Shown here: positions 9,960 through 37,683 of the stretch, one piece after another
Layout: the number at the start of each line of letters is the position of its first letter
How positions within the stretch are numbered: position 1 is the stretch's first letter
Origin: Robiginitomaculum sp.
Lineage (GTDB): Bacteria > Pseudomonadota > Alphaproteobacteria > Caulobacterales > Maricaulaceae
Assembly: GCA_021776525.1 (NCBI GenBank)
Contig: JAJFFT010000005.1
Location: 124,001 to 188,000, forward strand
Direction: 5' to 3'
Length of the DNA: 64,000 nt
Notes under the pieces: generated by a model
What the model saw: the letters and a program-made list of their open reading frames with translations, nothing else
What the model was told of the DNA's origin: nothing
Database searches by the model: none
Translations under genes and position numbers: made by a program

Positions 9960-11069
9960 TTACGGCGCTGTCTTTGGCCAGGCCAGCCGTCCGACATTGG
10001 CAGCGTTCAAGGAGCTGATATAAAGCCAGCCATCGCCCGGTTCCATGGCACCGGTGGTCAAGGGATATCCGCCGGCGGGATCTTGCAGGACATTAAGGAC
10101 GTGACCATCAAGGCCAAAATTGAGGACAAAGCCATAATTGACGGCCTTGGGCCGCACAGATGCGGGCAATCTTTGTACGACTTTGCGTAAAACCGGTTTG
10201 TCCGACAGATTATCCAGCGCGTCGGCGCGTGGGCTGGTCAGGCCCAGCCAGAACGAGCCATCCGGGGCACGGTTCAGATTATCAGGAAAGCCTGGTAAAT
10301 TCTCCAGCATAGCATCCACCTGGCCGGCTTTGCTGCCGTTCAGCCAGATACGTTTGATCGAATAGCTGCCTGTTTCGGCCACCAATAAGCAGGCATCATC
10401 GGGGCACATGGCGATGCCATTGGGAAAGGTCAGGCCGTCCAGCACTGTTGTGACGCTTTTATCCGCCGGATTATAGACCAGAATGCGGCCATCATTACTG
10501 TGCTCCATCAGGGCCAGCAAACTGCCTTGCAAGGTGCCGCCAGAGGCTTTGGCACCAAACCGGGTCGAGGCATCAGAAAAGAAAATGCGGCCATCTTCGG
10601 CAATATCCAGATCATCGGCATAGCCAATGGGGCTGCCATCACTGGTCTTGTCGGCCAGAACGGTGACTTCGCCATCCGGTGCAATCGACAACAGGCCGCG
10701 ATAGGCATCAGCAGCAATCAAATTGCCCGCATGGTCAAATTCCAGGCCCAGAGGGCGCCCGCCGGTATTGGCAAATTCGGATGCGGTTTTGGTGCGCGGA
10801 TCAATGCGCATGATCGCGCCATTATGCAGCGCCGTAAAAATGAAAAGCTGGTCATCAAGCATGCGGGCGGTAATGTCTTCGGGTCCATCACTTTGGCCCA
10901 AAGGGATCGTATCCAGATTAGCCAGTTTTGTATTGGCTTGCCATTGGCCCTGATAACCGGGCGAGGTGGGGGCGTCCCAGGATTGCGGGTCAATTGAAAC
11001 CGGCCATAAAAATAAATAAGCTAGGCCCAGCGCGATAATAATTCCAAAAACTCTGAGCAATGTACCCAT
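9960..11069 (-). CDS. SMP-30/strictosidine synthase-like beta-propeller protein
   Basis: This 369-residue protein has one N-terminal membrane helix (residues 5-24, LRVFGIIIALGLAYLFLWPV) and then a six-bladed propeller-type domain. Blade-like repeats are visible: GPEDITA, GRPLGLEFDHAGNLIAAD, YADDLDIAEDGRIFFSDAST, FPNGIAMCPDDACLLVAETG and LPGFPDNLNRAPDGSFWLG. The set matches the SMP-30/gluconolactonase and strictosidine-synthase-like superfamily, including APMAP-type membrane-anchored members, which are lactonases or arylesterases. The substrate cannot be told. The helix would anchor the propeller in the periplasm. The Shine-Dalgarno lies in a strong hairpin (see 11074-11104). Confidence 0.82.
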   Translation of the reverse strand: MGTLLRVFGIIIALGLAYLFLWPVSIDPQSWDAPTSPGYQGQWQANTKLANLDTIPLGQSDGPEDITARMLDDQLFIFTALHNGAIMRIDPRTKTASEFANTGGRPLGLEFDHAGNLIAADAYRGLLSIAPDGEVTVLADKTSDGSPIGYADDLDIAEDGRIFFSDASTRFGAKASGGTLQGSLLALMEHSNDGRILVYNPADKSVTTVLDGLTFPNGIAMCPDDACLLVAETGSYSIKRIWLNGSKAGQVDAMLENLPGFPDNLNRAPDGSFWLGLTSPRADALDNLSDKPVLRKVVQRLPASVRPKAVNYGFVLNFGLDGHVLNVLQDPAGGYPLTTGAMEPGDGWLYISSLNAANVGRLAWPKTAP

Positions 11070-25140: not shown

Positions 25141-26205
25141 CTATTTCACGGCAGTGTGTATGGCCGATGCGAAATCTGCCGGTGCGGCGCTCAACATGCC
25201 GGCATTGGCAGTATCAAAAAACGCGGTGATATGGGCATCAATATTTTTAACCGGCACCCGGCGCAAAGACGCCTCCAAATCATATATAATGCGCGGCGGT
25301 GTGACAAAAAAATCTCCGGTGATCAACACTTCGCGCAGGCGCTCATTGCGTGCGCCTTCCAGGCGGACAAAGGCGTTTACCGTGCCGCCCATGCCGGTAT
25401 GACTGCCCATCAATACACCGGCTTCGCGGGCCGGGTCATCAATTTCGGCGACAAAGTCGTCTGTGCCTATTTCTTCAGTATAAAGAGTTTGTGCGCGGCG
25501 TTCTTCGGCCTCGGTCACCTCACCCCATTTGGCTGCCAGCCCTAGTCGCTCTGTAAAGCCGCTAACCAGAGCCTGTTCCAACGTGTCCATGTCGGGCGTT
25601 TGATCGCCCAGCAAGGCCCGTAAACAGGTCACCCGATCGGCGGCACTGTCCAGGTTTTTACGCTCGACTTTGGCCTTGGCGACGTTGAGCGCCGCAAACA
25701 TGGTCTTTGGATCAAGATCGACCAGAACCGTGCCCTGATAAATCACCGTGTCGCCATCAAAAAAGCCGCCGGTGCCGGAGATTTTTCGCCCGCCCACTTC
25801 AATGTCATTGCGGGGCCGGTAATTGGCCTCAATGCCCAGTGTGGACAGGCCAGCCGCAGCGGCTTCGCAAATCATCATGGCGGTGTTGCCTAGGTCCCCA
25901 AGGTTGAGGGATTTGCGCCGCATGACCAGCGCCCAGCCCAATTGTCCCTGGTCCAGATAAATGGCCCCGCCGCCGGTGATGCGGCGCCCGATCTCGATAC
26001 CCCGTGCCGCACACTCGGTTTTATGGATTTCCTGGCTCAAAGCCTGATGTCGCCCCAACAGGGCCACAGGCTTGAAATGGATGAAGCGGATAGTGTCAGG
26101 GATTTCACCGCACCTGTGTGCGTCGATCATCGCCTGATCAAAGGCGATGTTCTCCCGGCCAGTACGCAGTCCCGTATCAATAATGCGAAAAGGTGGGTGG
26201 GACAT
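25141..26205 (-). CDS. slpl(AB): Lipoate:protein ligase of the sHdr type, sLpl(AB)
   Basis: This 354-residue ligase of the LplA/BirA fold activates lipoate or octanoate with ATP and transfers it to a lysine of the carrier protein. Visible are RRITGGGAIYLDQGQLGWALV (lipoyl-AMP binding), the catalytic lysine K141 in VGGRKISGTGG, and an extra C-terminal domain like that of fused LplA-LplB enzymes (FVRLEGARNERLREVLITGDF). Work on sulfur oxidisers showed that sHdr loci carry a dedicated ligase that modifies the lipoate-binding protein LbpA. This gene is last in a minus-strand operon with two radical SAM lipoyl synthases and lipT, so that role is inferred. It starts 3 bases after the preceding stop. 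Confidence 0.88.
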   Translation of the reverse strand: MSHPPFRIIDTGLRTGRENIAFDQAMIDAHRCGEIPDTIRFIHFKPVALLGRHQALSQEIHKTECAARGIEIGRRITGGGAIYLDQGQLGWALVMRRKSLNLGDLGNTAMMICEAAAAGLSTLGIEANYRPRNDIEVGGRKISGTGGFFDGDTVIYQGTVLVDLDPKTMFAALNVAKAKVERKNLDSAADRVTCLRALLGDQTPDMDTLEQALVSGFTERLGLAAKWGEVTEAEERRAQTLYTEEIGTDDFVAEIDDPAREAGVLMGSHTGMGGTVNAFVRLEGARNERLREVLITGDFFVTPPRIIYDLEASLRRVPVKNIDAHITAFFDTANAGMLSAAPADFASAIHTAVK

Positions 26206-26208
26206 GGC

Positions 26209-27501
26209 TTAATAATCTTCTAAGTCATCGCCTTCTTCGTAAGTTTCGCCGGGTTTTTGCATATCCAGTTGCGAGCGTATGCGGCGAATATCAACATCTG
26301 CCGGGGCAAAGGGATAAGAGGCGATGTCGGATGGTGGACTGTCGCCGTAAGGACGGTCACAGGCCGATATATCTTCGGCAAATTTTCCGGGACAACCCGA
26401 TGTGCGAAATGCGGTGCCCGCATCAATAACGCTATCCAGTTCGGCTTGCGCCAGACCAAAGTCAATCACCCGGCCTTCGCTGTCAAACTTCATTTTTTCA
26501 ACACGAATGCCATAATAATCAATCATATAACGTGCCAGTTGCACCCGGCGCCATTGATCGCGGGGGGTGGCCGGCAAATGGTCCATCAATGATCCTTGTT
26601 CGGGATAGAAACAGAACATGTGGCTGTGGCCACCAAGGTCGACAAGCTGTTGCACCAGTTCCAGAATTTCAAATTCGGTTTCGCCCATGCCGACAATAAT
26701 GTGCGCGCCAAACTTTTGTGGTCCAAATATATCGCGGGCATCCATCAGGATTTCCCAATATTTCTTCCAGCTGTGGGGCGATTGCACGCCTTTGCCACGG
26801 GTGCGGTCAAAAATTTCTGGCGTGGCGGCATCCAGCGCCACGGTGAAAATGTCGGACCCCATATCGCGCAAGGTTTGTACGTCTGAACGCGCCATGGTGG
26901 TGGGATTAGAGAGGATCGAGATCGGAATGGCATCCGGGTCCACATGGTCGGTCCAGGTTTTCAGGACACTGACCGTATCTTCGTCGGAACGCGGATGCGT
27001 GATCATCGAGATGCACATGCGGTGAAACGGACTGTTTTCCGGGTCTTGGCCGACAATCTGGGCGATTTTGCTCATCGGCACGCTGGGCCAGTCCACACGA
27101 ATGAAATTGCGATCCGCGTAATCCCGGTCGGCTTCGCGGTGGCGGGCCAGACCACAATAGGCGCAATTGGCGCGGCAGCCTTCGGGATAGGTGAGCAGGA
27201 TGTTGAGGCATCGCGTGCATTCGCAACGGTGCATTTTGCCGGGCATGATCCCCAGAGTTAGTGCCGCAGCAGTGGACAGCTGGACATATTCCGGCGAGGT
27301 CATATTGGGCGTTTGGATATTGTTATTGGGCAGATACAAGCCTTCGGGGCGGGCGTCTGCGGCTTTCACCCGACCACCATTACGGGCCTCTTTGGGGGGC
27401 TTTGCCGGGGCGCGTGGTTCCATCACGTCAAAGGGGTTAAAATCCAATCCGTCGGGTCCATTTTCACCGGGCCCTGCGTTTTCTGGTTTCAAACAGCTCA
27501 T
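26209..27501 (-). CDS. lipS2: Radical SAM lipoyl synthase, probably LipS2
   Basis: This 430-residue radical SAM protein has a CX3CX2C cluster motif (C109, C113, C116 in CRANCAYC), and an extra cysteine cluster just before it (C93, C95, C98 in CECTRC), a place where lipoyl synthases bind the auxiliary iron-sulfur cluster that donates sulfur. AHIIVGMGETEFE and EQGSLMDHLPATP are within the barrel. It belongs with the two-protein LipS1/LipS2 system that inserts the two sulfurs into octanoyl-LbpA, distinct from the classical single LipA. Which of the two radical SAM genes is LipS1 or LipS2 is assigned from gene order and is not certain. AAGGAG precedes the start. Confidence 0.75.
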   Translation of the reverse strand: MSCLKPENAGPGENGPDGLDFNPFDVMEPRAPAKPPKEARNGGRVKAADARPEGLYLPNNNIQTPNMTSPEYVQLSTAAALTLGIMPGKMHRCECTRCLNILLTYPEGCRANCAYCGLARHREADRDYADRNFIRVDWPSVPMSKIAQIVGQDPENSPFHRMCISMITHPRSDEDTVSVLKTWTDHVDPDAIPISILSNPTTMARSDVQTLRDMGSDIFTVALDAATPEIFDRTRGKGVQSPHSWKKYWEILMDARDIFGPQKFGAHIIVGMGETEFEILELVQQLVDLGGHSHMFCFYPEQGSLMDHLPATPRDQWRRVQLARYMIDYYGIRVEKMKFDSEGRVIDFGLAQAELDSVIDAGTAFRTSGCPGKFAEDISACDRPYGDSPPSDIASYPFAPADVDIRRIRSQLDMQKPGETYEEGDDLEDY

Positions 27502-27534: not shown

Positions 27535-28602
27535 TCATGCCGCCCAATATTCTGAATAGGCAATCCAACTGGCCCGCAGTTGATCCGGGGTTGGGGTGTT
27601 TTCGTTGGCATAAGTACTTAAAATTTCATGGCGGCGTTTCAGTGCACGTGCCAAAGATGCACCAAAAAGATCGTCCAAATCCTGTTGGTAATTCTCTGGT
27701 GCGTCCAGATCGCTGTGTAACCAGTCTGCGGCGGCTTCGCCGGCCAAACGGCCCGACATAACGGCGGCATTGATCCCGGCCCCGGTAATCGGGTTGGTCA
27801 GACCAGCCGCATCTCCGGCCAGTAAAACCAGGGTATTATTCAAAAACCCATAGGGCTTTAACATGCCGCCCGCGGGTATGGCTCCGCCAGTGTGGTTTAA
27901 AACTCTCGCACCTATACGGCCCTCTTGGATCAGGCGTTCATGCAGGGAAGACAGAATGTCTTTTAAGCGCGCCTTGTCGCTGGCCACCACCCCTAGGCCC
28001 AGATTGGCCGTTTCCCCCTTGGGAAAAAGCCAGGCATAGCCACCACGTATATCTGCATTCAAAAATATATCTGTAGATTCAAAGGGTTTGAGCAAGGGGA
28101 CGCTGATCTGGCGGGTTTCCAAAATATCCTGATTAGTCGAGCCAATGGCTTTTCCGGCCAGTGAGTGGGGGCCATCGGCACCAATGATCACTTTGGGAGC
28201 AATGCGGCTTTTATCAGCCAAAATAACAACGCCATCCTTGGTGATCTGGCGGACATTGACGCCATAGTGACATATAGCACCGGCCTTGCGCGCCTCTTGT
28301 GCCAATTTGGCGTCAAAATCGGCACGGTCGATCATGCGCCCCGGAAAGTCCGCCATAAGATCGGGCGTACTATTCTCGACCATTGTCAGCATAGAAGAGA
28401 TGTTTTGCACATGGCAGTCGCGCAAGTTATTAACCATGTTTTCGATTAACGCGGGCACAAATTCAGCGCACTGAACGGGCGTGCCGGGTGTTTTTTTTCG
28501 TTCAACGGTTAAGGTTGAGAAATTATTTTGCGCGAGCGCAATGGCCGCGCATGAGCCCGCAGGCCCAAGGCCAAGAACCAGTATGTCCGGGGCTGTGTTC
28601 AT
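27535..28602 (-). CDS. lipT: LipT, FAD-dependent oxidoreductase of geranylgeranyl-reductase type
   Basis: The 355-residue flavoprotein starts with a Rossmann motif ILVLGLGPAGSCAAIAL, a VERKKTPGTPVQCAEF substrate-side segment, IIGADGPHSLAG, and the second FAD motif LVLLAGDAAGLTNPITGAGI. This resembles geranylgeranyl reductase-like oxidoreductases. In sHdr loci such a gene (LipT) is conserved between the lipS genes and is thought to supply electrons or handle redox during lipoate assembly; its exact reaction is not known. The ATG at 28602 shares one base with the TGA of lipS1 (TGATG), so the two are translationally coupled. Confidence 0.82.
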   Translation of the reverse strand: MNTAPDILVLGLGPAGSCAAIALAQNNFSTLTVERKKTPGTPVQCAEFVPALIENMVNNLRDCHVQNISSMLTMVENSTPDLMADFPGRMIDRADFDAKLAQEARKAGAICHYGVNVRQITKDGVVILADKSRIAPKVIIGADGPHSLAGKAIGSTNQDILETRQISVPLLKPFESTDIFLNADIRGGYAWLFPKGETANLGLGVVASDKARLKDILSSLHERLIQEGRIGARVLNHTGGAIPAGGMLKPYGFLNNTLVLLAGDAAGLTNPITGAGINAAVMSGRLAGEAAADWLHSDLDAPENYQQDLDDLFGASLARALKRRHEILSTYANENTPTPDQLRASWIAYSEYWAA

Positions 28603-29639
28603 CAAGCGGCGCAGGTTGCCGACACTTGGGCAGATTCGCTGCCGCCAATTTTAATGGCGCAGCAAGCATGTTCTTGATGGTAGGGGCGGCCAATGGCGTT
28701 TGATACCGCCACGGCTCCATCGGCGGGAAAGGCAATGCCATCAAGGCCAGCCATCACAGCGTAGGAATCGGTGATGCGTTTGTGCATGCCAGGCGGACGG
28801 GCACAGCCCAACAAGACCTGACGGTCTGGAAGGCGCTGGCGTGCTTCCAGGAAGATGCGCCCTACATCAGAGGTGGAGGGCGTTTTGAATGTGCCGGGTT
28901 TGGCGTAAAACGGCATGATCACCACCAGCACCAATGCGTGCACGTCATAACGGCTGACAATATCCAGGGCGTTTTCTTCGCCCAATATTTCACCGTAATG
29001 CAGGCCCACGACAATATGCGGGGTAACTTTCAGCTTGGTCGAGGTCAGCGCAGCCAGTGTCGCTTCGAAATCATCCACCGGGCGGTCGAGTTTATAGACC
29101 TGCTCTATTGTTTCTTGCGCGCCGATGACGTCCATCATGGCCGAATCGACACCAGCCGATTCCATACGCTTGGCGGCGGCTTCATCCAGAAGGGCGGTAT
29201 GAATGGCAATTTGCAGATGGGGGAAGTCCGTTTTCAGCTTCTCAACGACAGGAAGGTAGCGTTCATATTTGATTTCATTGCGTTTATTCGATCCGCCTGA
29301 GAGCAAAAATCCTTGCAGGTTTTGCAGTACAACCATGTCACGCACCTGGCGGTCCAGATGCTCGGGTTTAACTGCTGGGATCATCGGTTCCAGAATTTTT
29401 TTCTGGCAATGATCACAATTCAGCGCGCAGCCACCAGCGGTGATGGAGAAGGCGGGGAATGAATTTTTCCCACAGCCGGAAAGCTCGGACGATTCGTACT
29501 CTTTAAAGGTGGGCGTGGAAAACCGAATGGGTCGGGCCAGCGACTGCGCGGCGTTATCTTCAAATGAGCGAATGAGGTTCGCGTCCAGCTCAGCATCTTC
29601 CAGCGCTTCGATTTGCAATATGCTTTGTTGCCAATTCAT
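28602..29639 (-). CDS. lipS1: Radical SAM lipoyl synthase, probably LipS1
   Basis: This 345-residue radical SAM enzyme has a CX3CX2C motif C71-ALN-C75-DH-C78 after the strand FSITAGG, a GFLLSGGSNKRNEI segment and the core repeats of a TIM-type barrel (TPHIVVGLHYGEILGEE). Cysteines near the C-terminus (LLGCARPPG, HACCAIK) and C56 upstream may bind a second cluster. It is the first gene of the minus-strand lipoate operon. The partner radical SAM gene lies two genes on. GAGGG precedes the ATG. The LipS1/LipS2 naming relies on order. Confidence 0.75.
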   Translation of the reverse strand: MNWQQSILQIEALEDAELDANLIRSFEDNAAQSLARPIRFSTPTFKEYESSELSGCGKNSFPAFSITAGGCALNCDHCQKKILEPMIPAVKPEHLDRQVRDMVVLQNLQGFLLSGGSNKRNEIKYERYLPVVEKLKTDFPHLQIAIHTALLDEAAAKRMESAGVDSAMMDVIGAQETIEQVYKLDRPVDDFEATLAALTSTKLKVTPHIVVGLHYGEILGEENALDIVSRYDVHALVLVVIMPFYAKPGTFKTPSTSDVGRIFLEARQRLPDRQVLLGCARPPGMHKRITDSYAVMAGLDGIAFPADGAVAVSNAIGRPYHQEHACCAIKIGGSESAQVSATCAA

Positions 29640-29659: not shown

Positions 29660-29684
29660 ATTCAATATGCGAATTTTCTAATAT
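29660..29684. promoter_or_regulatory. AT-rich motif in the divergent lipS1/gat promoter region
   Basis: ATTCA (29660-29664), part of ATTC-N7-GAAT, is followed by TTCTAATAT (29676-29684). The same two blocks recur upstream of the dsrE-shdr operon at 30518-30539. sHdr loci are controlled by an ArsR-type repressor in a studied relative, so this may be an operator; the spacing differs between copies (11 and 8 bases). Confidence 0.35.
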
Positions 29685-29731: not shown

Positions 29732-30427
29732 ATGAAATATCTATCGGTCATACAGCATACGTCTGCCGAATACCTGGGTTTGATGGAGGATCATCTGGAA
29801 GGGCGGCGCATCCGTTTTAATTATGCGCGTCCTTTTACTGAAAAAGGTAAGCCACCAGAGATCAGCACCATCGGTGATGGTCTGGTGTTGCTGGGTGGCG
29901 GCCCGTGGGGCAGTGCCGGGGGGCGCGATGTGCCAACATTGGCGGACGAGGTGACCTTGACTCGCGCGGCATTGATGACCGGTCTGCCGATTTTGGCCTT
30001 TGGTCTGGGGGCGCAAATTCTCAGCTTGGCCGCAGATGGCAGCGTTGATGCAACGCCGCTGGAATTTAAGGCTGGCCATGCACGTCGTGTTGAGGCGGGG
30101 GCCTTGAATGGCTATCTGCCTGAACGCTTTCCCCATGTCACCTATATGCGTGATCGTCCGGTGCCGCCCGGTTATGCCAAAGTGTTGGCCGAAGATGAAG
30201 AGGGCCATGCGGCGCTGTTTCAAATCGGCGATAATGCCTTTGGCTTTGCCGGGCATCCGGGCTTCAAACTGGCCATGGCCGAAGATCTGATCATGGAATT
30301 TGAAGAAGGCCCGGTGGGCGAAACCAAAGACGCCTTTGCCAACCTTCGCGGTATGAAAACCCAGATCGAAGATGCGCTCGTACCAATTATGACCGGGCTG
30401 ATCCAACTGACCGGCTGGATGCGCTGA
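29732..30427 (+). CDS. Class I glutamine-amidotransferase-like protein lacking the catalytic cysteine
   Basis: The 231-residue protein has the GATase1 fold pattern (LVLLGGGPWG, PILAFGLGAQILS, FGFAGHPGFK), but the nucleophile position of the GxCxGxQ-type elbow is glycine (G91 in AFGLGAQ), the HPE motif reads HPG (H175, G177) and the protein has no cysteine at all. It therefore cannot hydrolyse glutamine by the usual route. The frame is intact with a good start and AGAGG upstream, so it is not a decaying pseudogene. It is divergent from lipS1 and lies just before the dsrE-shdr operon, so a non-catalytic role in lipoate or sulfur handling is inferred. Confidence 0.75.
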   Translation: MKYLSVIQHTSAEYLGLMEDHLEGRRIRFNYARPFTEKGKPPEISTIGDGLVLLGGGPWGSAGGRDVPTLADEVTLTRAALMTGLPILAFGLGAQILSLAADGSVDATPLEFKAGHARRVEAGALNGYLPERFPHVTYMRDRPVPPGYAKVLAEDEEGHAALFQIGDNAFGFAGHPGFKLAMAEDLIMEFEEGPVGETKDAFANLRGMKTQIEDALVPIMTGLIQLTGWMR

Positions 30428-30517
30428 GCGGTATCGCTTATAGTTGCCGGGCTTTTTTCTGCAATTCTATTGGCTAAATTTTCACCCCACACCAAAAAGA
30501 TGTATGTTTGATCTTGC

Positions 30518-30539
30518 ATTCATTAGCACATTCTAATAT
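30518..30539. promoter_or_regulatory. Motif upstream of dsrE-shdr operon
   Basis: ATTCA (30518-30522) and TTCTAATAT (30531-30539) repeat the blocks found at 29660-29684. An inverted repeat ATTAG-N6-CTAAT (30522-30537) overlaps. It lies about 100 bases upstream of the dsrE start in a 209-base gap otherwise without a gene. Confidence 0.35.
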
Positions 30540-30636: not shown

Positions 30637-31014
30637 ATGGCTGATAAGCTGATGATCATCATGGCTAATACCGATCCACGCAATGGCGAGGAATTGGGCG
30701 CACCAATATTTCAGGCCACAGTGGCCGCTGCCATGGAATATGAGGTCGAGGTGATTTGCACTGCAACGGCTGGCCGGTTGATGAAAAAGGGCGAAGCCGA
30801 GAAGATGTTCGTTAAGGAAGGCTCTCCCAAAAGCGTCTATTCCTTTATTCAGGATGCCCATGAAGCTGGGGTCACATTCTATTGCTGCTCACCTAATCTC
30901 GATTTGTTCGACATGACGACGGACGATTTAATCCCGGAATGCAAAGGTATTGTTGGCGGGGCCTACCTCATTGAAGAGGTGATGGAAGAAGATATCAAGG
31001 TCCTGACGTATTAA
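30637..31014 (+). CDS. DsrE-family sulfurtransferase (DsrE3 type)
   Basis: This small cytoplasmic DsrE/DsrF-like protein of 125 residues carries persulfide sulfur. It begins MADKLMIIMANTDP and has cysteines at 41, 83, 84 and 102; C83-C84 in FYCCSPNLDLF is where DsrE3 proteins place their conserved active cysteine. In sHdr loci a DsrE3-type protein passes sulfane sulfur, together with TusA, to the sHdr-LbpA system. It is the first gene of the shdr operon, 24 bases before shdrC1. I start it at the ATG with GGAGGGAGAG upstream; a longer ORF from 30508 is leader. Confidence 0.88.
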   Translation: MADKLMIIMANTDPRNGEELGAPIFQATVAAAMEYEVEVICTATAGRLMKKGEAEKMFVKEGSPKSVYSFIQDAHEAGVTFYCCSPNLDLFDMTTDDLIPECKGIVGGAYLIEEVMEEDIKVLTY

Positions 31015-31038: not shown

Positions 31039-31788
31039 ATGTCTCATTCTGCCAGCTCCCGTGTTCAGGAATTTATCGGCGATCCGTTTGCCGAAAAATC
31101 GCTATTGCCACAGGAAAAACTGGAAGAGATTTTTACCGATATCCAGTCTGACCTGCGTTTCGATCACGAGCTGAACGGCTGTTTGAATTGCGGGATTTGT
31201 ACCGCCACGTGCCCGGCCGCGCACTATTACGATTTTTCTCCGCGCGAGATTGTCCAGTTGTTGTGGACCGAAAACCTGGATGGCATTTATGATGCCATGC
31301 AGGAAAAAATCTGGGCCTGTGCACAATGTTATACCTGTGCGGCGCGCTGCCCGTTCGGCAATTCACCGGGCGGCTTGATCATGATTTTGCGCGAAACGGC
31401 CATCAAGCATGGCATGGAAAGCGCCAAAAATGTGCTGCGCCCATTTTCGCGGGTGATGTTGAAGCTGATCTCAACAGGGAACCAGCTTTCCCCGGATATG
31501 ATCAACCCCGAACACTTTGCCGACTGGGGCCCTAATATTTCAAAGGTTGATGCGCCGCTGAAACTGTTGCGCAAGGCCATCCCGATGCCAACCCTGAACA
31601 CCACGGAAACGGCCTGGGAGGTGAACTTAAAAACCTCTGTCGAATTGTACACCATCTGGGAAGAAACCGGGGTTTTGGACCAATTGGAAACTGTGGACGA
31701 AAATCTCTTCGATGTGATCATCGATATCGTCGATGAGAAGAAAGAAGACTGGGAAGACTGGAAAGACGAACAGGACGATGACGACTGA
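31039..31788 (+). CDS. shdrC1: sHdrC1, iron-sulfur subunit of sulfur-oxidising heterodisulfide reductase-like complex
   Basis: This 249-residue HdrC-like protein carries two [4Fe-4S] ferredoxin motifs: C48-LN-C51-GI-C54-TAT-C58-P and C94-AQ-C97-YT-C100-AAR-C104-P. It would pass electrons between sHdrA and sHdrB1 in the cytoplasm. An acidic C-terminal tail (KKEDWEDWKDEQDDDD) is unusual and may be an interaction surface. An AGAGGAAG ribosome binding site precedes it. In bacteria this complex oxidises sulfane sulfur to sulfite and is distinct from the methanogen enzyme that reduces heterodisulfides. Confidence 0.92.
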   Translation: MSHSASSRVQEFIGDPFAEKSLLPQEKLEEIFTDIQSDLRFDHELNGCLNCGICTATCPAAHYYDFSPREIVQLLWTENLDGIYDAMQEKIWACAQCYTCAARCPFGNSPGGLIMILRETAIKHGMESAKNVLRPFSRVMLKLISTGNQLSPDMINPEHFADWGPNISKVDAPLKLLRKAIPMPTLNTTETAWEVNLKTSVELYTIWEETGVLDQLETVDENLFDVIIDIVDEKKEDWEDWKDEQDDDD

Positions 31789-31814
31789 TCGTCGAACCCG
31801 ATAAGGAGACCATA

Positions 31815-33176
31815 ATGGCCACCAAAGACACAAATAATGGCGAACGCTTTACCGGACACGGGTCCGAATGGCGCGATTCCGATCTTTCCAAGGAAGACGC
31901 GTTGGTCGCCACGGCATGGATCGAGCAAAGGATCAACAAACGCTCTATGTTGACCAATAAGGATCGCGTCCATGATATTCGTGATGTGATGTGGCAGCTG
32001 GAAAAAGACGGCGAGATCAAGGTTCACCGTATCCACGACGAGCACGAGCCGGTGATGGCCAAAACGCTCTATGGCTGGGACAAAAAAATCCCTACAAACC
32101 AGCTCTGGCACCATAAATCTTGCGGTCAATGCGGCAATATTCCGGGCTATCCAGCGTCTTTGCTGTGGCTGATGAACATGATGGACATCCGCTATCTGGA
32201 TGAAACTGATCAAACCTCATGTACGGCATGGAATTACCATGGTTCTGGTATTGGCAATATCGAAAGCCTAGCCGCCGTATTCTTGCGTAATTTTCACCAG
32301 GCCTATGTTTCGGCCAAGGCCGAAGGCAAACCGGAGGGGTATTATTACCCGCTGGTGCATTGCGGCACGTCGTTTGGCAATTACAAAGAAGTGCGTGAAT
32401 ATTTGCTGCTTTCTTCTGAACTGCGTGAGCGGGTTAAGAAAATCCTCGGCAAATTGGACCGCCTGGTGGATGGTAAATTGCTGATCCCCGAAGAAGTGGT
32501 GCATTATTCAGAATGGACCCATGTGATGCGTCACCGCATTAAAGAGCATCAGGTGATCGATTGCTCTAACATTCGCGCCACCATTCACCCGGCTTGCCAT
32601 GTTTACAAAATGGTGCCGCAAGACGTCATTTATGATGATGATGTGCTGAACGGCGACCGTGTGGCGGTGTCCACCGGCATTATCGAAGCACTGGGCGCGC
32701 AGGCGATTGATTATTCTACATGGTATGATTGCTGCGGTTTTGGTTTTCGCCACATTATTTCCGAACGTGAATTTACCCGTTCCTTCTCGATCGACCGCAA
32801 AATCAAAGTGGCCGTCGAAGAGGCCAATTCTGATGTGATGATCGGCCACGATACTGGCTGCATCACGACGCTGGATAAAAACCAGTGGATTGGTCAGGCC
32901 GAAGGCAAGAATTATGACCTGCCAGTGATTGCCGATGTGCAATTTGCGGCACTGGTTTGCGGCGCGCACCCTTACAAGGTTGTGCAATCGCATTGGCATG
33001 CGTCTTCTACCGAGAAGCTGTTTGAAAAACTAGGCATCGACTGGCGTGCCAAAAAAGCCGAGTTCGAGGACTATCTGAAACAGATCGAGAGCGGCGGCGA
33101 GCAGGAAAATCTTTACGACCCACGTCGGCGTATTACCGGCGGCCCTGGCTATAAGAAACAAGAGCAGATCACATGA
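31815..33176 (+). CDS. shdrB1: sHdrB1, CCG-domain subunit of sHdr
   Basis: This 453-residue HdrB-like protein has one clear CCG-type domain: HPACHVYKM, then WYDCCGFGFRH, then HDTGC. Such domains bind unusual noncubane iron-sulfur clusters at the thiol-active site. Extra cysteines lie N-terminally in HHKSCGQCGNIPG and ETDQTSC, and in VHCGTSFG. It is longer than typical HdrB, as expected for sHdrB1. TAAGGAG precedes its ATG; its stop overlaps the shdrA start (ATGA), which indicates coupled translation. Confidence 0.92.
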   Translation: MATKDTNNGERFTGHGSEWRDSDLSKEDALVATAWIEQRINKRSMLTNKDRVHDIRDVMWQLEKDGEIKVHRIHDEHEPVMAKTLYGWDKKIPTNQLWHHKSCGQCGNIPGYPASLLWLMNMMDIRYLDETDQTSCTAWNYHGSGIGNIESLAAVFLRNFHQAYVSAKAEGKPEGYYYPLVHCGTSFGNYKEVREYLLLSSELRERVKKILGKLDRLVDGKLLIPEEVVHYSEWTHVMRHRIKEHQVIDCSNIRATIHPACHVYKMVPQDVIYDDDVLNGDRVAVSTGIIEALGAQAIDYSTWYDCCGFGFRHIISEREFTRSFSIDRKIKVAVEEANSDVMIGHDTGCITTLDKNQWIGQAEGKNYDLPVIADVQFAALVCGAHPYKVVQSHWHASSTEKLFEKLGIDWRAKKAEFEDYLKQIESGGEQENLYDPRRRITGGPGYKKQEQIT

Positions 33177-34225
33177 GCACTAAACCGATTTTGATTGTTG
33201 GCGGTGGCCCGGCCGGGCTAGCCGCTGCGCATTCTCTGGCCAGCGTTGGCCAGAAATCCATCATTGTTGAAAAAGAAGATGCCTTGGGTGGCACGCCGAT
33301 CCTTTCCGGCTATGCCAAACTGGTCCCCAGCGGCGAATGGGCCAAGGATGCCATTGGTGGCATGGTGGACCGGGTGACCGGCAACAAGCTGATCACCGTG
33401 AAAACCGGCACGACTGTGAAAGAGTTTTCGGGCAAGCCCGGCAATTTCTCGGTGAAATATAGCGAAGGCAAGGGCAATAGCGTCTCTTCTGCTGTTTTGT
33501 GTACCGGCTTTACGCATTTTGACAGCATCAATAAGCCCGAATGGGGTTTTGGTACGTATCCTGATGTGGTGACCACCACGCAGGTTGAACAGATGATTTC
33601 ATCAGGGCAGGGCGTGCGTCGCCCATCCAATGGTGAAAAACCAAAACGCGTGGCGATATTGCTTTGTGTTGGCTCTCGTGATCGCCAAATCGGCCGCGAA
33701 TGGTGCTCGAAAATCTGTTGTACGGTGTCGGCCAATCTGGCGATGGAAATTCGCGAAGAACTGCCTGATTGCCACGTCTATGTTTATTATATGGACATCC
33801 GTACTTTCGGCCTTCTGGAGACCAAATATTACTGGAAAAGTCAGGAAGAATTCAAAGTCAAATACATCAAGGCGCGGATCGCCGAGGTGACGTCTGATGG
33901 CGACAAGGTGATTGTCAAAGGCGAAGACACATTGGTCAAACGCCCGATCACCATACCGTTCGACATGGTTGTGCACGCCGTGGGCATGGACCCCAATGTG
34001 GATAATATGCTGTTGTCCTCGATCTTTGACGTCAATTTGGAGCCAAATGGCTTTATTGATCGCCAAAACTCCTATGGTGGCATGGGGGCAAGCTCACGCG
34101 AGGGCGTATTTGTCGCCGGGTCTGCAACGGGCCCTGAAACCATCGATGATTCCATTGCCCAGGGTCAGGCCGCAGCGTTTAGCGCGCTGGCCATCGCCAA
34201 TGGTCAGATGGCGGCGGCGGAGTAA
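33173..34225 (+). CDS. shdrA: sHdrA, FAD-binding subunit of sHdr
   Basis: The 350-residue flavoprotein has the FAD motif GGGPAGLAAA at residues 10-19, the cluster-binding cysteines C165, C178, C182 and C183 in LLCVGSRDRQIGREWCSKICC, and a closing FAD segment FVAGSATGPETIDDS. It is shorter than methanogen HdrA and lacks its extra ferredoxin and insertion domains, which is the sHdr pattern. It is the proposed electron entry or bifurcation hub, with NAD as likely acceptor in sulfur oxidation (inferred). It follows shdrB1 with a 4-base overlap. Confidence 0.93.
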   Translation: MSTKPILIVGGGPAGLAAAHSLASVGQKSIIVEKEDALGGTPILSGYAKLVPSGEWAKDAIGGMVDRVTGNKLITVKTGTTVKEFSGKPGNFSVKYSEGKGNSVSSAVLCTGFTHFDSINKPEWGFGTYPDVVTTTQVEQMISSGQGVRRPSNGEKPKRVAILLCVGSRDRQIGREWCSKICCTVSANLAMEIREELPDCHVYVYYMDIRTFGLLETKYYWKSQEEFKVKYIKARIAEVTSDGDKVIVKGEDTLVKRPITIPFDMVVHAVGMDPNVDNMLLSSIFDVNLEPNGFIDRQNSYGGMGASSREGVFVAGSATGPETIDDSIAQGQAAAFSALAIANGQMAAAE

Positions 34226-34231
34226 TCAGCA

Positions 34232-35110
34232 GTGCTTTCTTTTTTGAACAAATCAAAAAAGGATGCCTCAGGGGCAAGCCAAGAGGCGCGCCCTGCGCTG
34301 GAGCTGTCCGGACCAATCCTGCAACAGGCCTTGCAACAGGCGATTGCCGGATGCGAGCCGATGGGTGGGATTGAGCGTTATATTGATGCGTTGAAGTTGA
34401 AATCCACGTTGTTTCAAGACGCCTTGCTGAATGGCGGCGTAAAGAACCTCACACCAGAAGCTTTTGGCGGGTTGTGTGTGTTCATGTCGACCGTGCGTCG
34501 CCGTGTGGCACCTTATCTTGAACCCGAAACCTTTACAGCCGTCAGGGGGGCGCTGGCGACCCTTTTGGACGGTCGCGAAGATACATCGAATGCCAATGAA
34601 CGGCTGGCCATGTTTTGTGAGGCCTTTCCTCAGGATAAAAAGCACCGTTGGGTACGCGATCTGGCGGCAGAAGTGCTGCATAATGTTGACCCCGAGCGCT
34701 ATCCCCTGATGACCCGCTGGATGTGGGATAAAAAGGCCAATACAGGCGTTATCCGAGAGATCTGGTTCGATGACCAGATCGACCATATGACGCTGGATGT
34801 TCCGGACACCTATCTGACCTTCATTACCCTGCGCGAAGAACTCAGCCAGTACTTGACCGAAAATGGTATTTTTCGCGATGTGCTGACCTATATCGACCTT
34901 TTATGCGCCCAGATTTATGCCGATTATATCTGCGCTCAGGGTGGGTCGTATTTGCGAACCGACTTTGCCTCGCCGCAAGACCCTATGGAATACACGCGTC
35001 GGCTGTTGGGGCTGGACGGGATTAAGGCAAAAACCAACAAAACCCGGCTGAAATCCATCGACGGCACAGCGTTTGTGCTGGATGACGCTAACCTCCTGCA
35101 ACAGAACTGA
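34232..35110 (+). CDS. Conserved sHdr-locus hypothetical protein
   Basis: This 292-residue soluble protein has no catalytic motif I recognise. It is mostly helical by eye and has three cysteines (LCVFMS, MFCEAF, LLCAQIY, YICAQ region). A gene of this size is a fixed member of shdr operons between shdrA and shdrC2. It begins at GTG 34232 six bases after the shdrA stop. A scaffold or assembly role for the sHdr complex would be a guess. Confidence 0.7.
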   Translation: MLSFLNKSKKDASGASQEARPALELSGPILQQALQQAIAGCEPMGGIERYIDALKLKSTLFQDALLNGGVKNLTPEAFGGLCVFMSTVRRRVAPYLEPETFTAVRGALATLLDGREDTSNANERLAMFCEAFPQDKKHRWVRDLAAEVLHNVDPERYPLMTRWMWDKKANTGVIREIWFDDQIDHMTLDVPDTYLTFITLREELSQYLTENGIFRDVLTYIDLLCAQIYADYICAQGGSYLRTDFASPQDPMEYTRRLLGLDGIKAKTNKTRLKSIDGTAFVLDDANLLQQN

Positions 35111-35118
35111 GCAATCAT

Positions 35119-35859
35119 ATGGCCATTCATGAAAAACATCTGATCCGCCCGGAAAACCTGAAAACCCATGATAATCTCGTGATTGATGGGGTGGATGTTT
35201 CCGGGCATTGGAGCACGTTTATCGAAACCCGGGTGGTCACCGATTATAACGAGCAATTGCAAGAAGAAATCGCCGCGCTGCCAGGCGGTGAATATATTCA
35301 CCGGTGTTGGCAATGCGGCTCGTGCACTAATGCCTGCACTGTCAATGCTATCAACCCCGAATTTAATCCGCGATACTGGATTTACCTGATCCGTATGGGT
35401 ATGGAATCTGAACTTCTGCGCGATAAAGAAATTATCTGGCAGTGCGTTTCATGTAACAAATGCACCTATGCGTGTCCCCGCGATGTGGTGCCCGAAGGGG
35501 TGATGAAGGCCACGGCCCACTGGCTGGAAATGAAAGAGCATACCGCCCCGTCTAATTCGACAATTTTCGACGAGGAATTCACCCGCCAAGTGGTGCAGAC
35601 TGGAAAAATCGAAGATGGCCGTATCTTGATGAATTTTCTCAAAAATTCCAAACAGCCCTTATTCCAGGACTGGTTGGTCGAAATGGTCAAAAAAATGATC
35701 ACCAATCTGCCGGTCAAATATCTGATGGGCATGGGATGGGCCACGGTGTTCCAGCCCAAGACCAAACGCTGGGGCAAAGCCCGCGCCGCCATTGAAGAAC
35801 ACATTGCCGAGGAAAAGGCCGCCGAGCGCGCCGCCCTTGGTCTTGATGCCGCCGAATAA
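35119..35859 (+). CDS. shdrC2: sHdrC2, second iron-sulfur subunit
   Basis: A 246-residue HdrC paralogue with two [4Fe-4S] motifs: C63-WQ-C66-GS-C69-TNA-C73 and C109-VS-C112-NK-C115-TYA-C119-P. After the ferredoxin core, it has a helical C-terminus rich in charged residues. It should pair with sHdrB2, encoded 12 bases downstream. Sequence similarity to sHdrC1 is limited to the cluster-binding part, so the two are not recent duplicates. Confidence 0.92.
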   Translation: MAIHEKHLIRPENLKTHDNLVIDGVDVSGHWSTFIETRVVTDYNEQLQEEIAALPGGEYIHRCWQCGSCTNACTVNAINPEFNPRYWIYLIRMGMESELLRDKEIIWQCVSCNKCTYACPRDVVPEGVMKATAHWLEMKEHTAPSNSTIFDEEFTRQVVQTGKIEDGRILMNFLKNSKQPLFQDWLVEMVKKMITNLPVKYLMGMGWATVFQPKTKRWGKARAAIEEHIAEEKAAERAALGLDAAE

Positions 35860-35871
35860 GAGGAAAATAAA

Positions 35872-36807
35872 ATGCCCGAACGTAAAGAAAAATACAAAAA
35901 AGTTGCCTATTATCACGGCTGCGCGCTGGAGGGGACGGCCCAACCGTACAACACCTCGACCCGCGCGATTGCCAAAAAGCTGGACCTGGAACTGGTTGAT
36001 ATTGAAAACTGGAACTGTTGCGGTGCCATGGAGGTCAAAAACGTTGACCCGGAAATTCAGACCTATCTGTCTTCACGGGTGATGTCGCTGGCTCATAACG
36101 GCATGGGCCAGGATGTGGTTATGGCCCCGTGTAATGGCTGCTATCATAATCTCAAAAAAGCTGAATACGATATTGCCAATAAGGAAAAATCTCGCGAAGT
36201 CGTTGAGAAAATTTCTGCAAAGGCAGAGCACCCAACCTATGAGGCCGGGCAGGTGGAAACCATCCACGCGCTTGACTGGATTAAGTTTGGCTATGGCGAA
36301 GATGAGTTAAAAGAAAAGATCAAAGGTGGCCTTAAGGGGCTGAAAGTCGCCAACTATTACGGTTGCATGTATACGCGCCCGCGCCATATTTTCCCCGAAA
36401 AAGATCAGGGCGGCGACAGCGAAAGCACATCAAAACCGCACTATATGGACGATCTTTTGGCCATAGCCGGTGCCGAGAATGTTGAGTTCCCCCTCAAAAC
36501 CGCGTGCTGCGGCGGGGCGCATACCCTGTCAGACAGTGACACCTCGACCAAGCTGGTTTTAAACATTCTCAAAGCCGCCGAGGCCGCCGGAGCCGATGTT
36601 ATCGCGACCGAGTGCCCGACCTGTCACTCAGGTCTGGAAATGCACCAGATCCGCGCCTTGAAACGCATGTCGGCCGAGACAAATGTCAAGATTGTATATT
36701 TTACGCAATTGCTGGGTCTGGCTTTGGGCCTCAGCGCACGTAAGGTCGGCATTCATGAAAACGTGTCTAATGCCATACCCATGCTGAAAGCCAAGAAAAT
36801 CGCATGA
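35872..36807 (+). CDS. shdrB2: sHdrB2, two-CCG-domain subunit
   Basis: This 311-residue HdrB homologue has two complete CCG domains: C17 (YYHGCALE), C49-C50-G (NWNCCGAME), C87 and C90 (CNGC); then YYGCMYTRP, TACCGGAHT and CPTCHSG. That equals the classical HdrB active-site set with two noncubane clusters. It is the likely site where the lipoate-bound sulfur is worked on. The final ATGA overlaps the next gene. Confidence 0.93.
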   Translation: MPERKEKYKKVAYYHGCALEGTAQPYNTSTRAIAKKLDLELVDIENWNCCGAMEVKNVDPEIQTYLSSRVMSLAHNGMGQDVVMAPCNGCYHNLKKAEYDIANKEKSREVVEKISAKAEHPTYEAGQVETIHALDWIKFGYGEDELKEKIKGGLKGLKVANYYGCMYTRPRHIFPEKDQGGDSESTSKPHYMDDLLAIAGAENVEFPLKTACCGGAHTLSDSDTSTKLVLNILKAAEAAGADVIATECPTCHSGLEMHQIRALKRMSAETNVKIVYFTQLLGLALGLSARKVGIHENVSNAIPMLKAKKIA

Positions 36808-37245: not shown

Positions 37246-37683
37246 ATGCCAGACGTTCGCGGTTGTCACTTCCCCGAAGACCTTCTCTATGATGTGGAAA
37301 ACCACATTTGGGTAAAAGAAGAGGGTGACGGCAAAATTAGATTGGGCATGACCGCTGTGGCCACTGCTATGGCCGGTCAACTGGTGGCCTTTACCCCCAA
37401 AAAGGTTGGCCGCAAGGTGAAAGCCGGCCGTTCGTGTGCGACGGTTGAAAGTGGCAAATGGGTTGGCCCGGCAAAGTCACAGGCTGGCGGCGAGGTTCTC
37501 GCCTCTAACGAAGCTTTGGTGGCAAATCCAAGCCTTGCCAATGATGACCCTTACGCTAACTGGATGGTGGAGATTGCCGCCGAGGACTGGGACAGCATTA
37601 AAGGTAATTATACCTCTGGCGCCGATGTCGCCGCGCCCTATGAAGCCAAAATGGAAGCCGACGGGTTTGCAGGCTGCGAGTAA
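37246..37683 (+). CDS. lbpA: LbpA, lipoate-binding protein of the sHdr pathway (GcvH-like)
   Basis: This 145-residue GcvH-fold protein carries lipoate on K71 within CATVESGKWVGPAKS, in place of the ESVKA motif of glycine-cleavage H protein. No gcvT or gcvP is nearby. LbpA shuttles sulfur intermediates to and from the sHdr complex on the dithiolane arm. C64 and C7 are additional cysteines. Its dedicated lipoylation genes are at 25-29.6 kb. AAAGGA precedes the ATG; a strong terminator follows, so it closes the operon. Confidence 0.92.
   Translation: MPDVRGCHFPEDLLYDVENHIWVKEEGDGKIRLGMTAVATAMAGQLVAFTPKKVGRKVKAGRSCATVESGKWVGPAKSQAGGEVLASNEALVANPSLANDDPYANWMVEIAAEDWDSIKGNYTSGADVAAPYEAKMEADGFAGCE

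Follow-up and report, generated by a model that had tools for sequence, protein, structure and literature searches.

The window, that is the whole stretch of 64,000 nucleotides analysed here, carries within an sHdr-LbpA locus a gene that resembles a glutamine amidotransferase (GATase), and the question is what such a protein does there. The sHdr-LbpA system is an important cytoplasmic route of sulfur oxidation, and how it assembles lipoate and passes sulfur on is a matter of continuing study. The open reading frame (29732-30427, plus strand) is intact, runs from an ATG to a TGA and encodes 231 amino acids, none of them cysteine. Relatives were collected in a bacterial genome scan, which gave 118 loci with a relative, 80 of which were kept; these loci, the loci of another search and the window protein together yielded 82 distinct sequences (one of them, L106, without its N-terminus). 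Relatives support the start of the window frame, 71 of the 82 sequences having Met at the first position, in agreement with the good start claimed in the earlier note. From the reading of the frame, its relatives and an AlphaFold2 model, the product is described here as a LipX-like pseudo-glutamine-amidotransferase.

By position and annotation the gene matches the published lipX and is already known by that name. In the accessible parts of the respective papers, lipX is a "putative glutamine amidotransferase" (PMC10332631), a GATase1 gene is labelled in such clusters (PMC6067878), and a figure legend on a recent model counts lipX as one of the lipoate assembly enzyme genes (PMC11582611); the accessible part of PMC12423496 does not mention it. 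In Hyphomicrobium denitrificans, the start of lipX overlaps the stop of slpl(AB) (PMC10332631, in part) and lipX (Hden_0687) adjoins dsrE3C (Hden_0688) (PMC10451225, in part). The resulting order slpl(AB)-lipX-dsrE3C is shared with most of the 80 loci, and synteny, together with L047, L059 and similar loci from Hyphomicrobiales, suggests that the window gene is orthologous to Hden_0687. Unlike in H. denitrificans, the lip operon of the window points away from lipX. The descriptions of Hden_0687, as far as the accessible text of these five papers goes, make no mention of a loss of the catalytic cysteine, and in the accessible open-access literature, most subscription journals lying outside the scope of the search, no report was found in which a catalytic residue is said to be absent or a lipX mutant is described.

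The divergent neighbour of lipX on the minus strand (28602-29639) encodes a LipS1 family lipoyl synthase (NCBIfam LipS1, 189.4 bits, E of 9e-56, under the cut-off of 230). It is followed on the same strand by a LipT-type FAD oxidoreductase (27535-28605; GG-red-SF, 180.5 bits; name taken from the accessible part of PMC10332631), a LipS2 family lipoyl synthase (26209-27501; NCBIfam LipS2, 184 bits, under the cut-off of 270) and the lipoate:protein ligase sLpl(AB) (25141-26205; Pfam LplA-B_cat, 151 bits). Downstream of lipX, on the plus strand, a DsrE-family sulfurtransferase gene occupies the dsrE3C position (30637-31014; Pfam DrsE_2, 43.5 bits); the start at 30637 follows from a reading of the sequence, the listed TTG start at 30508 being less likely. 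The open reading frames at 31039-36807 (plus strand) are presumably sHdrC1, B1, A, hyp, C2 and B2 in this order, with labels assigned by position after the published gene order, and the GcvH-like lipoate-binding protein LbpA is encoded at 37246-37683 (plus strand; Pfam GCV_H, 100 bits). The window gene thus lies beside both slpl(AB)/lip and dsrE3C-shdr genes, and at least one lip, dsrE or shdr gene was found on the same stretch in 78 of the 80 window-type loci: sLpl(AB) in 72, DsrE in 69, LipS2 in 63, LipS1 in 59 and LbpA in 48, with many stretches cut by contig ends. The usual arrangement is sLpl(AB)-LipX-DsrE in one direction. At the two exceptional loci (L044 and L045, both at 10001-10696, from two Robiginitomaculum genomes) LipX has been relocated from the lip and shdr genes to a site beside a topoisomerase-like gene, and LipS1 is still encoded elsewhere in these genomes. 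In L069 and L077, extended open frames were considered as fusions of LipX to sLpl(AB) or LipS2, but turned out to be stop-free alternative frames.

The glutaminase chemistry of GATases depends on a nucleophilic cysteine. In a phmmer alignment with the solved GATase 9xfs, AFGLGAQ of the window protein stands opposite GICLGAQ and GFAGH opposite GLQFH, which places Gly91 (codon 30002-30004, plus strand) at the position of the nucleophile and H175-P176-G177 (codons 175-177, 30254-30262, plus strand) at that of the former HPE motif, the window protein reading HPG in place of the catalytic His and Glu motif. The earlier note had likewise read an intact frame, glycine at both positions and no cysteine, and all of these readings were confirmed. 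The refuting case named there, close relatives in shdr loci that keep the triad, was looked for and did not turn up, and the loss extends across shdr loci: among the 82 distinct sequences, position 91 is Gly in all and position 177 is Gly in 81. The comparison was extended to four groups, from which fragments below 150 amino acids and identical sequences had been removed beforehand, namely 92 window-type sequences, 21 gammaproteobacterial, 2 sox-type and, outside the family, the 21 GATase homologues nearest to it. Gly occupies position 91 in 92/92, 21/21 and 2/2 members of the first three groups (115/115 in total), and Cys in 21/21 of the other homologues. In the set of 82 sequences, the changes at positions 91 and 177 are far beyond chance. 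Of the triad changes only that of Cys to Gly is universal, and the earlier picture has to be qualified: residue 175 remains His in 70 of the 82 window-type sequences and is Asn in the other 12, and the gammaproteobacterial branch has Arg at 175 and retains Glu at 177 (each 21/21). At position 177 the window-type branch (n = 92) has Gly in 91 cases and Ala in 1. The weight that had been given to the complete lack of cysteine is not supported; only 14 of the 82 sequences are free of it, the others have 1 to 4 cysteines at scattered positions, and as judged from the alignment this property is incidental and confined to close relatives of the window protein and a few others. Given glycine at the nucleophile position and the chemistry of GATases, LipX, as read from its sequence, is unable to cleave glutamine by way of a cysteine, and the putative glutamine amidotransferase activity of the published annotation is not possible in that way.

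The fold of the family was assessed with profiles and models. The window protein scores 20.1 bits against Pfam GATase (PF00117), under the gathering score of 22.8, which two of its relatives exceed (L122 with 30.6 bits, L125 with 25.2 bits); the best NCBIfam match is PRK07053 (47.6 bits, covering residues 1-217, against a cut-off of 250). Though weak, these profile hits agree with membership of the GATase class. The AlphaFold2 model of the window protein (mean pLDDT 94.4, pTM 0.92) has as its best solved matches 8khs (DnfC; Z 26.2, rmsd 2.5, 223 residues), 3l7n (Z 24.8) and 3m3p (Z 24.5), and the model of a gammaproteobacterial member (mean pLDDT 91.9) also has 8khs as its top match (Z 26.8, rmsd 2.4, 225 residues). 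Both main branches are therefore predicted to have the alpha/beta fold of class I GATases. This fold is shared with the PRK07053-like class I enzymes (PF00117, NF005458; DnfC 8khs, TM1158 1o1y, 3m3p), from which LipX differs in lacking the nucleophilic cysteine, and the window protein also in lacking the HPE glutamate, in falling below the Pfam and NCBIfam cut-offs and in its own K179/E184/D185 signature. Among the fold matches of the LipX model is the glutaminase-like domain of human carbamoyl phosphate synthetase I (5dou, 6uel). The GATase domain of that protein lacks the catalytic cysteine and has been kept for a role other than glutaminase; it is one domain of a large synthetase, and the likeness to LipX considered here is one of fold.

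Two signatures mark the family. The N-terminal one, QHxxxEYLGLMEDHLEGRxIRFxYxRPF (codons 8-35, 29753-29836, plus strand), is near-invariant in the branch of the window protein, and its residues Q8, L15, E19, R25, I27, Y31 and R33 are invariant in both main branches. In the C-terminal one, KxxMxEDLIME (codons 179-189, 30266-30298, plus strand), K179, E184 and D185 are invariant in 92/92 window-type and 21/21 gammaproteobacterial sequences. Lysine at position 179 falls outside the three most frequent residues of the 21 Cys-containing homologues, and E19, R25, Y31, R33, K179, E184 and D185, all invariant or nearly so in both main groups, are mostly not so among these homologues. The K179/E184/D185 set is absent from the sox-type pair. 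The two signatures presumably lie near each other, going by the topology of GATases. No invariant Ser, Thr, Cys or His was found in the alignment of both main branches.

The LipX frame is clearly under purifying selection. The dN/dS values were 0.066-0.080 against the six closest orthologues (within the genus) and 0.122-0.144 against three further ones, at dS above 1 throughout, so that synonymous sites are near saturation; the dS of a tenth orthologue could not be estimated. In a tree of the family all Gly91 sequences fall on one side of a branch (support 98/93), and the same split was obtained after omission of columns 91, 95 and 175-177 (support 92/78); the window-type set was thinned for these trees (81/136 and 75/136 sequences used), and a warning that long branches meet applies to both. 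Since both trees set the Gly sequences apart by one branch, a single loss of the cysteine is the simplest account. LipX can be recognised as a well-defined family of bacterial pseudo-GATases in which the nucleophile was apparently lost once.

The distribution of the family was determined in two genome samples, with search sets (A1 and A2) assembled from the family members of this analysis; those of A2 came mostly from sHdr-positive genomes. Among 385 alphaproteobacterial genomes, 12 match the family with more than 220 bits and the remainder with 78 bits at most. sHdrB1 (E up to 1e-60) is present in 10 of the 385; all 10 carry a family member, at a distance of 1.3 to 4.2 kb from sHdrB1, compared with 2 of the 375 genomes without sHdrB1. 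In 369 genomes of a second class, the Gammaproteobacteria (the class of G101), a family member is present in 22/22 sHdrB1-positive genomes versus 1/347 negatives; these 22 and the negative one, G827, score at least 287 bits and the next score is 107. Fisher tests gave very small p values, which overstate the case because the genomes of both samples share ancestry, so that the counts do not represent independent events. For a control with sHdr-negative near kin of the gammaproteobacterial carriers, the order around G617 offered only 3 genomes and that around G509 only 1. G827 (L180; 2.2 Mb) has a strong gammaproteobacterial LipX and no match to sHdrB1 or sHdrA, owing either to an incomplete assembly or to a real loss. 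LipS1 was searched for in 35 family-carrying genomes and detected in 30; it was not found at E 1e-20 in G388, G302, G394, G596 and G681, some of which could be explained by incomplete assemblies. Overall, LipX is a conserved family under selection that is predicted to adopt the GATase fold, lacks the catalytic cysteine and is tied to sHdr sulfur oxidizers, and its link to lipoate synthesis is looser than its link to sHdr.

Within the second class, two of the 22 sHdrB1-positive genomes (G101 and G657) have a window-type LipX next to shdr, and the other 20 have the branch that is about 27% identical to the window protein. That branch is mostly encoded away from lip and shdr genes, which counts against a role as an sHdr partner. 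In the readable cases (neighbourhoods were read for 10 of 14 gammaproteobacterial stretches) its gene often lies in a run of LysR, LipX, a DUF2281-like gene and an AI-2E transporter, as in L167 (8088-11219) and similarly in L166, L173, L176 and L179; the full run is not seen in all. Also counting against such a role are G827, with its LipX but no sHdrB1 or sHdrA match, and a divergent relative of about 225 bits with Gly91 in two genomes of one genus, G302 and G394, where it is found in a sox-like cluster (L135, 9359-10102; L136, 9116-9826) whose gene names come from the reading of open reading frames, except for one sulfur transporter matched by Pfam. No sHdrB1, sHdrA or LipS1 match was found in these two genomes. 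A search for plasmid-borne relatives with the window protein gave none, and one with the sox-type relative gave three weak matches in records labelled Acinetobacter.

Our preferred reading, to which we assign a probability of about 0.55, is that LipX is a non-catalytic partner protein of the sHdr/LbpA sulfur-oxidation system that has the fold of a GATase. The nucleophilic cysteine would have been lost, most simply in a single event that preceded the spread of the family among sulfur oxidizers, with the class I fold kept. LipX may then have been retained because it binds something, most likely another protein of the sHdr-LbpA system, with sLpl(AB), LbpA or a DsrE-type sulfur carrier as candidates. 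Binding might involve the family-specific residues E19, R25, Y31, R33 and K179/E184/D185/M188/E189, which, going by the sequence, would form a surface. As an adaptor or chaperone, LipX could take part in loading or holding LbpA or sulfane sulfur, or in passing either of them on. A role on the side of sulfur oxidation is favoured over one in lipoate synthesis because the tie to sHdr persists in the branch that is encoded elsewhere and because LipX is present where LipS1 was not found. A stronger version, in which LipX is a so far unrecognised, nearly obligatory non-catalytic component of sHdr-based sulfur oxidation, a pseudo-glutaminase adaptor rather than a lipoate-assembly enzyme, draws on the 32/32 sHdrB1 genomes in the two samples, on two branches with unlike genomic settings and on the retention of LipX in genomes without a LipS1 match, and is put forward tentatively, as rather doubtful. 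The present label misleads: it names an enzyme that this protein, strictly co-occurring with sHdr, cannot be by its sequence, and this is a direct, testable gap.

The selected, non-glutaminase protein proposed earlier is supported by glycine at position 91 throughout the family in shdr loci, and the same observation bears on the idea that LipX is an ordinary GATase supplying ammonia to a neighbour. That idea draws on the fold and on annotation only (including a legend in the accessible part of PMC10332631), and with Gly at the nucleophile in 115/115 sequences it is contradicted and extremely improbable. A single degenerate copy or pseudogene, as the two altered catalytic positions might suggest, is more improbable still, since the same state is found family-wide in intact frames with dN/dS of about 0.07; both readings were rejected on these grounds. 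More credit is due to the possibility that the old site still binds glutamine, glutamate or a lipoyl or octanoyl amide, leaves it uncleaved and signals the nutrient or cofactor state to partners. The window-type branch retains the GGGPWG loop, Q95 (87/92) and H175 (78/92), and the GGGP loop and H175 of most of its members leave room for ligand binding; inactive GATase mutants can hold glutamine, and one of them, the C89A GMP synthetase with glutamine (4wio), is among the fold matches. Q95 is, however, kept in only 4 of the 21 gammaproteobacterial sequences and H175 is replaced by Arg in all 21, so that such binding would not be the shared function of the family, and we regard this reading as unlikely. 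Less likely again is an enzyme with a different chemistry, using K179, E184, D185, E19 and Y31, for instance on octanoyl- or lipoyl-LbpA. Several charged residues are indeed invariant in both branches and lipX is listed with the lipoate assembly enzymes (PMC11582611, figure legend), but no nucleophile (Ser, Thr or Cys) and no His is invariant across branches, and 5 of the 35 family-carrying genomes have no LipS1 match. Moreover, LbpA was modified in E. coli with the Thioalkalivibrio lipS1-slpl(AB)-lipT-lipS2 genes, on a cloned piece also described as carrying lipY (PMC10332631, accessible part).

Partly palindromic, operator-like sites ATTAGNANNTTCTAATAT are present upstream of lipX/lipS1 (29667-29684) and of dsrE (30522-30539). 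The pattern has 7 matches on both strands with up to 3 mismatches, against 0.79 expected, in a test that is post hoc because the pattern was derived from the very sites. In the H. denitrificans region, the SoxR repressor bound 4 of 5 intergenic probes tested, including the regions upstream of lipS1 and dsrE3C (PMC10451225, accessible part). The core TCTAATAT recurs upstream of lipX in six relatives.
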